Shown here piece by piece: positions 1 through 57,093 of a stretch of DNA of 64,000 nucleotides. The notes under the pieces were generated by a model that did no database searches, had not been told where the DNA came from, and saw only the letters and a program-made list of their open reading frames with translations. A program made the position numbers and the translations under genes. Each line of letters starts with the position of its first letter. Positions within the stretch are counted from its first letter, which is position 1. Origin of the DNA: Acidobacteriota bacterium (lineage in GTDB: Bacteria > Acidobacteriota > Thermoanaerobaculia > Multivoradales > JAGPDF01); assembly GCA_014584695.1 (NCBI GenBank), contig JACTMI010000009.1:1-64000 (forward strand), read 5' to 3'.

Positions 1-61
1 TCCTCAGCGCTCGAAAACCACGTGGCAACCCCTTTCGACCAAGCAACTTGGAGCAGCCACT
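1..61 (+). promoter_or_regulatory. Probable 3' end of the CRISPR leader
   Basis: These 61 bases abut the first intact repeat and contain no repeat copy, although a 36-nt spacer would have placed one ending near position 25. The array therefore starts here. The opposite end carries the decayed repeat, which marks it as leader-distal, so this side should be the leader. Most of the leader, and any adjacent cas genes, would lie left of the window. Confidence 0.6.
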
Positions 62-275
62 GTCATCCGAGGCGCGAAGCCTCGGCCCCATTGAAGCGTC
101 GGCGCGATCTCGACCAACGGCACGGTCGACGCCGTCATCCGAGGCGCGAAGCCTCGGCCCCATTGAAGCAAGCGGACGTCGCAAACATCCGCGCGGCGAT
201 GGTCGTCATCCGAGGCGCGAAGCCTCGGCCCCATTGAAGCCACCGCTCGACCGCCTGGCTCGCCCTGCTGCTCAT

Positions 276-321
276 GTCATCCGAGGCGCGAAGCCTCGGC
301 CCCCCTCGGCCCCATTGAAGC
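276..321 (+). repeat. CRISPR repeat 4 with a 10-bp internal duplication
   Basis: This copy is 46 nt rather than 36. After the hairpin the sequence CCCTCGGCCC is present twice, so the distance between the stem and the ATTGAAGC end grows by 10 nt. The three newer leader-side repeats are normal, so the change arose in situ after integration or was not copied forward. Confidence 0.95.
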
Positions 322-3300
322 GCCAAGGGCTATGCCTACGACTTGATCGTCAAGACGGTCATCCGAGGCGCGAAGCCTCGGCCCCATTGAAGCAACCTCG
401 AACCGCTGAAGTGGGATGCGCCCGAGATGGTCATCCGAGGCGCGAAGCCTCGGCCCCATTGAAGCCGCATGTGCGCGGCGCGCCACTGCTCGTTCGCGGG
501 CGTCATCCGAGGCGCGAAGCCTCGGCCCCATTGAAGCAGGACGTGCTCGACGCCACCAACGAGCGCGTGAAGGGTCATCCGAGGCGCGAAGCCTCGGCCC
601 CATTGAAGCGTTGGTGGCCTGATCCGCTGGCTTCTTGGCCCGACCGAGTCATCCGAGGCGCGAAGCCTCGGCCCCATTGAAGCTTGTAGCGCTCGCGCCA
701 GCAGCGCCGAAACTGGGAGTGTCATCCGAGGCGCGAAGCCTCGGCCCCATTGAAGCGATGGTAGCGGCGCACGAGGCCGAGAACACCAAGCTGGTCATCC
801 GAGGCGCGAAGCCTCGGCCCCATTGAAGCCAGGTCGGAGAGCTGCTGGAGATCCGTGGCGGGAAGGTCATCCGAGGCGCGAAGCCTCGGCCCCATTGAAG
901 CGCGTGAGGATCTCCTCAGCTCGCGCATAGCTGCGGCGTCATCCGAGGCGCGAAGCCTCGGCCCCATTGAAGCCTCGACGCTGGCTGAGCGGGCCTTGCG
1001 GAGCCGAGCTGTCATCCGAGGCGCGAAGCCTCGGCCCCATTGAAGCCAGATCCGGAACGTCAAGGGGATCCACGCCTTCGAGTCATCCGAGGCGCGAAGC
1101 CTCGGCCCCATTGAAGCGCGAGCAGAGCCGCGGCCTCGCGCGCCTCGTCGGTCGGTCATCCGAGGCGCGAAGCCTCGGCCCCATTGAAGCGAGCACTTCG
1201 GCGAGCTCCAACTCGAAGTCGGGGAGGTCATCCGAGGCGCGAAGCCTCGGCCCCATTGAAGCGAACTCGTCACGATGGGCGACGATCGCGTCCGGCCGGT
1301 CATCCGAGGCGCGAAGCCTCGGCCCCATTGAAGCAACCAGGATGGCGGCGACTTCACCGGCACGCTCACCGGTCATCCGAGGCGCGAAGCCTCGGCCCCA
1401 TTGAAGCAAGCCGAGCGCCATCGGCTCCATGCCCTCCTCGGCGTCATCCGAGGCGCGAAGCCTCGGCCCCATTGAAGCGAGAAGCCGCCCTCGTAGACCG
1501 CCAGCACAGCCTCGTCATCCGAGGCGCGAAGCCTCGGCCCCATTGAAGCAGCCAGGTCGGCGAGAGATTCGTGAGGCGCACGCGGGTCATCCGAGGCGCG
1601 AAGCCTCGGCCCCATTGAAGCCAGGCGACGTGATACCAGCGCTTCGCAGCGACCGTGTCATCCGAGGCGCGAAGCCTCGGCCCCATTGAAGCGCCCACTC
1701 CTGCTGCTTCGCGACCGCTGGCTGGTATGTCATCCGAGGCGCGAAGCCTCGGCCCCATTGAAGCGCTCGGGGTGGTGGTCAGCCCGCCGGGATCAGCCGC
1801 GTCATCCGAGGCGCGAAGCCTCGGCCCCATTGAAGCTTGCGCAGGAAGTCGAGGGTCTCGGCGAGGCCGGCGTCATCCGAGGCGCGAAGCCTCGGCCCCA
1901 TTGAAGCGCGTCGCGTCGCGGCCGCCCCTGCCCTGCTCCCCAGGTCATCCGAGGCGCGAAGCCTCGGCCCCATTGAAGCATGTAGGTCGTCAATGGCAGG
2001 AACGAGGGACCGAACGTCATCCGAGGCGCGAAGCCTCGGCCCCATTGAAGCTGCGAGGCGCCCACGGTCAGGCTCTCCGGATCGCGCGTCATCCGAGGCG
2101 CGAAGCCTCGGCCCCATTGAAGCACGCCCTTCTGGATCGCATCCTCGACGCTCCAGTCGTCATCCGAGGCGCGAAGCCTCGGCCCCATTGAAGCCTGGCC
2201 CGCCGCCTCCCCCGGCACCTGGGCCGGCACGTCATCCGAGGCGCGAAGCCTCGGCCCCATTGAAGCTTGGGGATGTCCGCAGACACGAGCGCGCGGAACG
2301 CCGTCATCCGAGGCGCGAAGCCTCGGCCCCATTGAAGCTCCGGGCCGGTCAGCGTGCCGCTAGCCGGCGATGGCGTCATTCGAGGCGCGAAGCCTCGGCC
2401 CCATTGAAGCTGGCAAGTGCGAGCCGACGGCTCGGTGACTTGGGTTGTCATCCGAGGCGCGAAGCCTCGGCCCCATTGAAGCAGGACGACCTTCTGCGTG
2501 AGCGCGTTGCCGGAGACGCGTCATCCGAGGCGCGAAGCCTCGGCCCCATTGAAGCTACGTGATGTTCGCGAAGCCGGCATCGGCCAGCTTGTCATCCGAG
2601 GCGCGAAGCCTCGGCCCCATTGAAGCGAGAAAGATCTGCGCCTGCTCGTAGCGACGACGAGGTCATCCGAGGCGCGAAGCCTCGGCCCCATTGAAGCGGG
2701 ATAGGACTCGGGCGATACGCCCACCGCAACCGAGTCATCCGAGGCGCGAAGCCTCGGCCCCATTGAAGCGGACGAAGTGCCGCGCGATCACGGACGCGCA
2801 GCTCGTCATCCGAGGCGCGAAGCCTCGGCCCCATTGAAGCGGAGTGGCCGAGGGAGCGCAGAACCGCGACGAGCCGGTCATCCGAGGCGCGAAGCCTCGG
2901 CCCCATTGAAGCGCGAGTGCCTGAGCGCATCCGCAACCAGCTCACAGAGCGTCATCCGAGGCGCGAAGCCTCGGCCCCATTGAAGCGGTGGGTTCCGCAG
3001 CGGTCACGCCCGCTGCGTCCTCGTCATCCGAGGCGCGAAGCCTCGGCCCCATTGAAGCCAGCGTACCCGTCTTTCCCTCTTCGGTCGCCGCGGCGTCATC
3101 CGAGGCGCGAAGCCTCGGCCCCATTGAAGCGCGTCGCGCCGTGGCCGCCCCTGCCCGGCGCCCCAGACGTCATCCGAGGCGCGAAGCCTCGGCCCCATTG
3201 AAGCCGCGGCGTGCCCGACTTCCACGACCTCGCGGACAACGTCATCCGAGGCGCGAAGCCTCGGCCCCATTGAAGCGAGCGTGTCGACATGGCCGGCCGC

Positions 3301-4973
3301 CGGCGTGGCAAGTCATCCGAGGCGCGAAGCCTCGGCCCCATTGAAGCCGGTCCCACTCCGACCTCGGCGGCGGCCGCACGCCCGTCATCCGAGGCGCGAA
3401 GCCTCGGCCCCATTGAAGCGCGGTGGCCTGGCGGACGCCGCCGCGGGCGCCAGCAAGTCATCCGAGGCGCGAAGCCTCGGCCCCATTGAAGCGGTGCTGG
3501 CGGATCTCCTCTTCGCGCAGGCAGTGCAGGTCATCCGAGGCGCGAAGCCTCGGCCCCATTGAAGCCTGACCGAGACGACGAGGGTCACGAGCTGCCGCGT
3601 CGTCATCCGAGGCGCGAAGCCTCGGCCCCATTGAAGCCATTCGCGGTCAGCCAGAAGTGGCGAATCTCGTCGAGTCATCCGAGGCGCGAAGCCTCGGCCC
3701 CATTGAAGCCATGGTCAGACCTCCTTGCTCTTGCGTGGGAAGACTCGGTCATCCGAGGCGCGAAGCCTCGGCCCCATTGAAGCACCGCCGCGGAGGGAGT
3801 AGGCCCGCTGGCCGACGCCGTCATCCGAGGCGCGAAGCCTCGGCCCCATTGAAGCCAGGTATTCGCGGCGTTCGCCAAGCGGAACGCAGCGTCATCCGAG
3901 GCGCGAAGCCTCGGCCCCATTGAAGCTCCACAGATTTTGCCGCGATCACCGCGAAAATTACCGTCATCCGAGGCGCGAAGCCTCGGCCCCATTGAAGCTG
4001 GGCGCTCGGCGCGATTCGCTCACCGTGCCGCGCGGTCATCCGAGGCGCGAAGCCTCGGCCCCATTGAAGCCGGGATCGATAGACGGCCCAAGAGCCGCAG
4101 GAAGGCGGTCATCCGAGGCGCGAAGCCTCGGCCCCATTGAAGCACCACGGTGAACGAGCCATTGTTTTCGACAGCCAACCGTCATCCGAGGCGCGAAGCC
4201 TCGGCCCCATTGAAGCCTCGAGCACATGTACCACGGCGCCGAGCGGACGAACCGTCATCCGAGGCGCGAAGCCTCGGCCCCATTGAAGCCACGGTGAGCC
4301 CGGGCGCTCCGCAGTCCCTCCGCTGGTCATCCGAGGCGCGAAGCCTCGGCCCCATTGAAGCTGGATCCTGTTCCCTAGAGTGCCGCCGAGCGAGACGCGT
4401 CATCCGAGGCGCGAAGCCTCGGCCCCATTGAAGCGGATGCTCGCGACCGGTCACGAACGTGGTCCTGTGGGTCATCCGAGGCGCGAAGCCTCGGCCCCAT
4501 TGAAGCATCAAGATCATCAGCGACTCGGCAACCGAGGTGGTCGTCATCCGAGGCGCGAAGCCTCGGCCCCATTGAAGCCCGGGCATCGGTCTCCTCGACA
4601 TGGCGTGCGAGGCGTCATCCGAGGCGCGAAGCCTCGGCCCCATTGAAGCGACGGATCGGATCAGCTTCGACATGAGAGCCTCCAGGTCATCCGAGGCGCG
4701 AAGCCTCGGCCCCATTGAAGCAGGATGCCGGGCGACGTGTTCCCGGAGACCGTGGGGGTCATCCGAGGCGCGAAGCCTCGGCCCCATTGAAGCTGGGCGC
4801 TGGGTGCGGTTCGTGCGGCGGCGCGGGCCGTCATCCGAGGTGCGAAGCCTCGGCCCCATTGAAGCGAGGTCGAGGGCCGCGGCTGCGACCCCCAGAAGCT
4901 CGTCATCCGAGGCGCGAAGCCTCGGCCCCATTGAAGCCGGGCTATCGCCTGAGCTGCGCGGAAGACGATGCGG

Positions 4974-5009
4974 GTCATCCGAGGTGCGAAGCCTCGGCCC
5001 CGTTGGAGT
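4974..5009 (+). repeat. Decayed terminal CRISPR repeat
   Basis: The last repeat keeps the first 28 bases with one change (GAGGTGCG), but its end reads CCGTTGGAGT instead of CCATTGAAGC. Degeneration at one end is typical of the leader-distal terminus, and it sets the array orientation as plus strand. Confidence 0.9.
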
Positions 5010-5084: not shown

Positions 5085-5432
5085 CTAGAAACGGTCGTCC
5101 GCCGTGGCCAGCACGAGGGCTTCGACGCTGGCCTGCGCGAGGAGCAGGCGATCGAAGGGGTCGTCGTGATGGCGCGGTAGCTTGCCGGCGACCTGCGCGT
5201 GGCGGGCCGAGATTGGCAGCTCCGAGAAGCCGTTGGCGGCGATCTCGGCGACCAGGTCCCCTTCGACCGCGAGCTTGCCCAGAGCGGCCTTGATGGCGGC
5301 TTCCCAAATCGAGGCGGCGCTCACGAGGACTTCGCTGCGTGGTGCGGATACGGCCGCGCGCGCGCGGGGTCCGAGCCGCCGATCGTCTCGCAGACACCAG
5401 GGAAAGATGTGGGTTTCGAGCAGAATCCTCGA
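5085..5432 (-). pseudogene. Decayed PIN-domain (VapC-type) toxin
   Basis: The frame encodes about 115 residues resembling VapC-type RNases that pair with Phd antitoxins. It opens RILLETHIFPW, contains SAASIWEAAIK and DPFDRLLLAQA, and ends LATADDRF. Three defects are visible. The family's first catalytic Asp (normally LLDTH) is Glu. No ATG, GTG or TTG exists near the expected start, where the codon is TCG at 5430-5432. The protein stops about ten residues before the usual C-terminus. A single T at 5431 (minus strand) would restore a TTG start and, in the upstream frame, a TGA stop for the antitoxin. It lies directly downstream of the antitoxin gene and 75 bp from the CRISPR end. I infer an inactive toxin relic. 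Confidence 0.75.
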
Positions 5433-5668
5433 TCCGACTCGCCCCGGAAGGCGCGCGCGACCGCCTCCGGCAAGGGGGCGTCGAAGTCGCTGGCGATCCG
5501 CACCTTGCCCTTGAGCCGGCCGGGCCGTCGTGGCTGGTCCTCGAAGCCGATCAGCCGGGCGACCGGCTTGCCGCCGCGCGTGATGACGAGCGCCGCACCC
5601 GCCTCGGCCTCGACGAGCAGGCGGGGGAGGTGTGTCTTGGCCTGGTTCACGGTCACCGATTTCGACAT
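5321..5668 (-). CDS. Phd/YefM-family antitoxin, stop codon apparently lost
   Basis: The N-terminal 75-80 residues match Phd/YefM antitoxins: MSKSVTVNQAKTHLPRLL, then ITRGGKPVARLIGFE, then the linker PGRLKGKVRIASDFDAPLP. This domain dimerises, binds its own promoter and neutralises the PIN toxin through its C-terminal tail. The homologous region ends at FRGESD near 5433. The next codon is CGA where TGA is expected, so the frame reads through about 37 more residues in the toxin region's other frame before stopping at 5321. The start at 5668 fits the family N-terminus. If translated, the protein has an unnatural tail. This may be a retained repressor or a relic. Confidence 0.75.
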   Translation of the reverse strand: MSKSVTVNQAKTHLPRLLVEAEAGAALVITRGGKPVARLIGFEDQPRRPGRLKGKVRIASDFDAPLPEAVARAFRGESDRGFCSKPTSFPGVCETIGGSDPARARPYPHHAAKSS

Positions 5669-20670: not shown

Positions 20671-20775
20671 GAAAAGCAAGAAGCAAGAAGCAAGAAGCAA
20701 GAAGCAAGAAGCAAGAAGCAAGAAGCCAAGAGCCAAAAGTCAAAAGCCAAAAGCGAAGAGCCAAAAGCCAAAGGC
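20671..20775. repeat. Heptanucleotide tandem repeat array, 15 units
   Basis: This is exactly 15 consecutive 7-bp units. The first eight are GAAAAGC and seven copies of AAGAAGC; the rest drift through CAAGAGC, CAAAAGT, CAAAAGC, GAAGAGC and CAAAGGC. The A-rich strand contrasts sharply with the GC-rich surroundings. Direct 7-mers of this kind recall the short tandemly repeated heptamers known in cyanobacteria. The identical copies in the middle suggest recent slippage. Confidence 0.95.
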
Positions 20776-20881
20776 TCCATAGAAGGGGAGATCCTCTCCG
20801 CACCGGCGGCCGCTGCGAGCTCGAGGCGGCGCTCGGTTCACCACCCCCTTCAACAGAACGCTTTTGCTTTTCGCTCCGGCG
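20776..20881. repeat. ~105-bp element, copy 1
   Basis: It starts TCCATAGAAGGGGAG in register with the heptamer array and includes GCGGCCGCTGCGAGCTCGAG, CCCCCTTCAACAGAACGC and the final CTTTTCGCTCCG. Copy 2, 204 bp downstream, matches apart from a few substitutions and one insertion. No open frame or terminal inverted repeat typical of an insertion sequence was found. Confidence 0.85.
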
Positions 20882-20944
20882 GTCACGGCAGCCTCGCAGG
20901 CTGCTCAGCTGGTGGCTCGCGGAGACGCCTTTCGTCGATCGCGC

Positions 20945-20979
20945 GAGAAGCGAAAGGCGAAAGGCGAAAAGCGAAAAGC
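20945..20979. repeat. Second heptanucleotide array, 5 units
   Basis: The units are GAGAAGC, GAAAGGC twice and GAAAAGC twice, directly followed by TCCATAG, exactly as in the first array. The heptamer block therefore belongs to the duplicated element and varies in copy number between copies. Confidence 0.9.
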
Positions 20980-34898: not shown

Positions 34899-35044
34899 GC
34901 GAGCCGCCAGGCTCGCGACCGCGGCGGGGTGAGGCCAGCGGATTCACTCCGCTGGCCGAGGGGAGGGCGCGTGCCCTCCCCTGGCGGCGGGGTGAGGCCA
35001 GCGGATTCACTCCGCTGGCCGAGGGGAGGGCGCGTGCCCTCCCC
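34899..35044 (+). repeat. Three-hairpin intergenic repeat element, two tandem units
   Basis: Unit 1 (34899-34981) has hairpin A GCGAGCC-GCCA-GGCTCGC (34899-34916), hairpin B GGCCAGCGG/CCGCTGGCC around ATTCACT (34933-34957), and hairpin C GGGGAGGGC/GCCCTCCCC around GCGT (34960-34981). Unit 2 repeats B and C up to 35044. It fills most of the 324-bp gap between gap and the protease gene. Related units lie near 53.3 and 56.9 kb. From 35045 to 35164 the protease's promoter is expected, but no clear consensus was seen. Confidence 0.95.
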
Positions 35045-35164
35045 TGTGGAATTGGCCGGCCCGACCTCTATCGAAGGTGATAGCGAACGGTCCCTTGCGC
35101 GGGACCGCTCGGTCGGGGTAGCTTCCGGTTCATCCCACACGGTCACCCACGGAAGGAGAAGGCG

Positions 35165-53296: not shown

Positions 53297-53380
53297 GCGA
53301 GCCGCGAGGCTCGCGACCGCGGAGGGGTGAGGCCAGCGGATTCACTCCGCTGGCCGAGGGGAGGGCGCGTGCCCTCCCCT
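53297..53380 (+). repeat. Three-hairpin intergenic repeat element, unit 3
   Basis: Hairpin A is GCGAGCC-GCGA-GGCTCGC at 53297-53314, then hairpins B (GGCCAGCGG/CCGCTGGCC) and C (GGGGAGGGC/GCCCTCCCC). It sits between convergent genes with the next two units, together filling the 332-bp gap 53237-53568. Confidence 0.95.
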
Positions 53381-53390
53381 TGGAAGGCGC

Positions 53391-53455
53391 CCTCGCGACC
53401 GCGGAGGGGTGAGGCCAGCGGATTCACTCCGCTGGCCGAGGGGAGGGCGCGTGCC
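53391..53455 (+). repeat. Three-hairpin element, unit 4 (truncated)
   Basis: It repeats the linker CTCGCGACCGCGG and hairpin B, but is cut within hairpin C after GCGCGTGCC, where TAGCTCTGTC follows instead of the second arm. Hairpin A is mostly lost. Confidence 0.9.
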
Positions 53456-53479
53456 TAGCTCTGTCAAGGCGACAGCGGA

Positions 53480-53562
53480 GCGAGCCGTCAGGCTCGCGAC
53501 CGCGGCGGGGTGAGGCCGCCGGATTCACTCCGGCGGCCGAGGGGAGGGCGCGTGCCCTCCCC
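53480..53562 (+). repeat. Three-hairpin element, unit 5, with compensated stem B
   Basis: Hairpin A is GCGAGCC-GTCA-GGCTCGC. Stem B reads GGCCGCCGG (53514-53522) and CCGGCGGCC (53530-53538), so two base pairs are changed on both sides while the loop ATTCACT is kept. Hairpin C ends CCCTCCCC followed by TTTC. Confidence 0.95.
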
Positions 53563-53568
53563 TTTCAA

Positions 53569-56810: not shown

Positions 56811-57093
56811 GCGACGACGCCGCGAATTCTCCACACCCCTCGAGAAGAGAGCCGAAGCCGCCGTCAGCGAGCGAGCCGCGAGGCTCGCGACCGCGGTGGG
56901 GTGAGGCCAGCGGATTGACTCCGCTGGCCGAGGGGAGGGCGCGTGCCCTCCCCATGCAGATGAGACCCGCGTGCCCTCCGGCGCCAGACTGAGGCCAGCA
57001 GGAGCGAGCCGAAAGGCGAGCGACCGCGGCGGGGTGAGGCCAGCGGATTGACTCCGCTGGCCGAGGGGAGGGCGCGTGCCCTCCCCTGTTAGA
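56811..57093 (+). repeat. Three-hairpin intergenic repeats, units 6 and 7, between convergent genes
   Basis: Unit 6 (56871-56953) has hairpin A GCGAGCC-GCGA-GGCTCGC, then B and C. Unit 7 (57002-57086) has a modified A (GCC-GAAA-GGC) and the same B and C. In both, the loop of B is ATTGACT rather than ATTCACT. The gap separates the decarboxylase from the convergent HD-GYP gene and contains nothing else recognisable. Confidence 0.93.

Follow-up and report, generated by a model that had tools for sequence, protein, structure and literature searches.

Type I-G CRISPR-Cas systems (formerly I-U) with a Cas4/1 fusion are known from Geobacter sulfurreducens, Methanosarcina barkeri and Thioalkalivibrio sulfidiphilus. 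When spacers are acquired, the PAM end is processed precisely by Cas4 and the other end is trimmed by Cas1 (PMC10504553); the published type I-G PAM is TTN, and the type I-G effector flips out the crRNA base at each sixth position (PMC9638904). Near-identical spacers have been described in Bifidobacterium lactis arrays, mostly of type I-E and in one case of type I-G (PMC12915315). Here we describe a pair of such spacers, numbers 26 and 43, in a type I-G array at the start of a 64,000-nucleotide stretch of an Acidobacteriota genome (contig JACTMI010000009.1, positions 1 to 64,000; referred to as the window). In the portion of the Bifidobacterium report drawn on here, the likeness to our pair lies in spacer differences of a few nucleotides, judged by the hitting of the same protospacer; the difference is that near-identical spacers are classed there by differences in the seed. 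The pair 26/43 is thus a known kind of thing, an ordinary mark of the sort that immunity to related phages is expected to leave, and it alters no idea about CRISPR.

The type I-G locus and its array

Position 1 of the window is the end of its contig (G000:C5), and the reverse complement of another contig of the assembly (C28) overlaps the window start by 98 bp. Toward the window, C28 encodes Cas3g (TIGR02621, E 1.7e-209), the Csx17/Cas8g large subunit (TIGR04113, E 1.8e-172), Csb1 (Cas7g; TIGR02570, E 6.2e-24), Csb2 (Cas5/6g; TIGR02165, E 9.1e-41), a Cas4g/Cas1g fusion (NF049935, E 2.6e-241) and Cas2, followed by the leader. The array and the cas genes of the adjoining contig form a complete type I-G system. 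All signature genes are like those of the three systems named above, as are the 36-bp repeat ending in ATTGAAGC and the spacers of mostly 35-38 nt, and we found no structural differences from these systems. The same repeat 3' end is common to most of the other type I-G arrays that we collected. Among 21 sampled genomes of the host's relatives, a full-score Cas4/1 was found in this genome only (operon on contig C28, locus L009), and the closest Cas4/1 proteins found elsewhere are about 58-66% identical and mostly from Gamma- and Betaproteobacteria. Because no full-score system was found in the sampled relatives, these data suggest that the host acquired its type I-G operon by horizontal transfer.

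The features of the array are listed in Table 1. The leader lies at the left end of the window, and a degenerate terminal repeat at 4974 marks the leader-distal end; spacer 1 is therefore the newest and spacer 68 the oldest, which also sets the relative age of spacers 26 and 43. The repeats are nearly invariant, with two substitutions in the 68 non-terminal copies plus one 10-bp duplication. The repeat at 276-321 reaches 46 bp through this duplication, which doubles CCTCGGCCCC in its 3' half and leaves its 8-nt handle ATTGAAGC intact. Just past the old end of the array, an ORF on the minus strand (5085-5668) reads by eye like a Phd/VapB-type antitoxin (MSKSVTVNQAKTHLPRLL...) and is followed, in another frame and again by eye, by PIN-toxin-like sequence.

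Table 1. Coordinates of the leader, the array and the spacers discussed in the text (window positions).
Feature	Position	Strand	Remarks
CRISPR leader, 3' part	1..61	+	no repeat within 1-61; overlaps end of contig C28
Type I-G CRISPR array	62..5009	+	69 repeats (36 bp, GTCATCCGAGGCGCGAAGCCTCGGCCCCATTGAAGC), 68 spacers
Spacer 26	1908..1943	+	36 nt; younger of the pair
Spacer 43	3131..3168	+	38 nt; older of the pair
Spacer 55	3999..4034	+	candidate same-start partner of spacer 66
Spacer 66	4794..4829	+	candidate partner of spacer 55

Two spacers with a common start

Spacers 26 and 43 begin at the same base and, over the first 36 nt of spacer 43, are identical at 32 of 36 positions (11% divergence), the mismatches being located at positions 9, 12, 27 and 30; the original prediction gave the coordinates, the alignment and the mismatches correctly in every detail. 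The spacers that flank them (25/27 and 42/44) are unrelated to each other. On a 35-position scale the pair reaches 31/35 identities, whereas in 5000 arrays simulated with a first-order Markov model no same-start pair exceeded 25/35; same-start comparisons with the spacers of other type I-G arrays (n=143,888) gave a maximum of 23/35. Within this array and its sister arrays, 26/43 is the only clear pair with a common start and several mismatches in a single array. The view that one site was sampled twice, and independently, is therefore upheld by the shared start, the unlinked neighbours and a similarity beyond chance, no simulated array of the randomised control having produced an equally similar pair.

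All four mismatches share one codon phase (p = 0.025). When four substitutions were placed at random, 5.2% of trials left them silent in one or more of the six frames. Taken alone, the pair is a weak basis for deducing a coding site (p about 0.025-0.05). The original prediction had also quoted a peptide from the minus strand, on which the pair comprises 11 complete codons plus GC. The third positions of that frame are also the third positions of plus frame 1, in which both spacers give ASRRGRPCPAPQ and are equally silent; since the two strands are equally synonymous, neither that peptide nor its strand is established. Codon usage was uninformative for choosing the coding strand: it favours neither wobble frame, and both score below other frames for spacer 26.

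Spacers 55 and 66 are the second-best pair of the array and possibly a second one with a common start. They begin at the same base and agree at 24 of 36 positions, plus frame 1 reads WALGAIRSPCRA and WALGAVRAAARA, and 7, 4 and 1 of their mismatches fall at third, first and second codon positions, respectively. This level of similarity was reached in 18 of the 5000 simulations, but other arrays contain equally similar pairs at shifted offsets, and we regard 55/66 as suggestive only. Two viral matches to it were rejected, one of them in a small real-looking ORF (L229, 7568-7807) where only the 7 residues forced by the pattern agree. It is doubtful that the array preferentially re-samples particular conserved coding sites, whether by priming or because an essential gene contains a PAM hotspot; if it did, it would accumulate synonymous versions of one target, and 55/66 would be a second, older case.

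Sister arrays and the search for the target

We collected 80 related loci, 68 of which have arrays, with 2,119 spacers in total. When about 2,160 distinct spacers from this array and the sister arrays were compared (at least 3 mismatches, at least 88% identity), three cross-array pairs passed beyond this array; the share of their mismatches that falls in a single codon phase is 3/3, 4/4 and 2/3 (9/10 when pooled). The coding interpretation of 26/43 is strengthened by these pairs, since they display the same phase pattern. The 4/4 pair, composed of Rhodanobacter L094 spacer 129 and Thauera L125 spacer 51, resembles 26/43 in having four mismatches, all in one phase, but comes from two hosts and opposite strands, and its target can be named, namely a phage primase. 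The wobble pattern of its peptide ITGEWIRINPK matches 72 viral contigs, in every case within a long open frame (291-1009 aa), and the best of these frames is a phage DNA primase (PHROG 2249, E 9.7e-159; Pfam DUF5906). The flanks of these sites (TT on one strand in 55/72, TTC or TTT on the other in 63/72) are in line with the TTN PAM. The type of event initially proposed for the window does therefore occur in type I-G systems, with a coding signature and a shared PAM as had been predicted. Because a single wobble-degenerate pattern led to 72 viral contigs with a primase gene, such pairs make it possible to deduce, from CRISPR memory alone, in which phase an unseen phage gene is read and that it is conserved. 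In a further sister array (L070), spacers 34 and 45 have an exact 27-nt overlap on opposite strands and are one invader site captured in both orientations.

A protospacer of 26/43 was found neither in 2.9 million viral contigs (searched with six patterns, one of them the full wobble pattern and the others either relaxed or fully synonymous), nor among one genome each of about 85,000 species, nor in 396 genomes of the phylum with up to 3 mismatches allowed, nor in the genomes of the host and its relatives, nor in phage and plasmid records; tblastn of the peptide against phages gave no match. The expected hits of both spacers and the peptide in one homologous phage gene thus did not appear. Since the same pattern method does find its targets in the case of the primase, the invader is probably simply absent from the searched collections, and the pair is a good hook for finding it in further metagenomes. 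Several candidates were discarded. A match to the BPP-1 terminase crosses the point at which two spacers had been concatenated, and its frame is a different one. Relaxed patterns gave five, three and six matches in viral contigs, none with a convincing gene frame or an extension past the pattern, and these were judged to be chance; 3-mismatch matches in genomes of relatives do not stand out as protospacers; and matches of concatenated spacers to genomes of the family are G+C-rich, have no TTN and were also attributed to chance. A coding protospacer in related invaders is probable, on a weak phase signal backed by the sister arrays; the phage source that had been proposed with it found no counterpart in any searched collection.

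Origin of the pair

We favour the interpretation (probability about 0.75) that spacers 26 and 43 were acquired independently at one PAM, from homologous sites of two related invaders and probably within a conserved coding gene. The Cas4/1-fusion adaptation complex would have taken the same site twice, 17 array positions apart. Cleavage by Cas4 at the PAM, presumably TTN in this host by analogy with the sister systems, would fix the first base of the spacer, and loose trimming of the non-PAM end would yield 36 nt in one case and 38 nt in the other; two independent acquisitions at one PAM would thus account for both the exact shared start and the ragged other end. The wobble-only differences would reflect the location of the stretch in a gene that is probably protein-coding and conserved. 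We infer both the coding nature of the DNA and its source in a phage or a related mobile element.

The site may instead be non-coding, or coding in another frame, the shared phase being a 1-in-40 coincidence. The modest p value leaves room for this, and for spacer 26 other frames score better on codon usage; the sister-array pairs, however, have the same phase pattern, and phage genomes are mostly coding. We consider such a coincidence unlikely.

Slightly less likely again is the synonymous escape of the original prediction, in which silent changes in the phage disabled spacer 43 and spacer 26 was then re-acquired. The younger age of spacer 26, given by the leader and the degenerate last repeat, would fit, as would differences that are silent in a possible frame. 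However, seed positions 1-8 are identical and all four mismatches lie outside the PAM-proximal 8 nt; if the usual flip register (6, 12, ..., 30) applies, positions 12 and 30 would fall on flipped-out bases and only the mismatches at 9 and 27 would matter. Escape is therefore not needed to explain the pair, and spacer 43 would probably still recognise the target of spacer 26. Moreover, four differences together resemble divergence between relatives and not stepwise escape, and acquisition of spacer 26 from a relative would be the simpler course.

A source in one element with two paralogous copies of the gene, in place of two related phages, is compatible with the pair itself, but no such element was found in the searched collections and the L094/L125 pair illustrates that homologous sites carried by different phages are enough; this origin appears improbable. 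Although exact spacer duplications by array recombination are seen in three sister arrays (L091, L137, L143), a drifted array-internal duplicate is hardly credible in view of the 11% divergence against the near-invariant repeats, the unequal lengths and the unrelated neighbours.

Farther along the window, at 34921-35046, 53319-53563 and 56893-57088, lies a G+C-rich repeat of 63 bp that is palindromic in part, has the core GCCAGCGGATTCACTCCGCTGGC and often occurs as tandem copies; it has 55 matches in the genome. The heptamers AAGCAAG and AAAAGCC are repeated at 20672-20979 inside a long open frame, and this stretch possibly encodes a lysine/alanine-rich segment.
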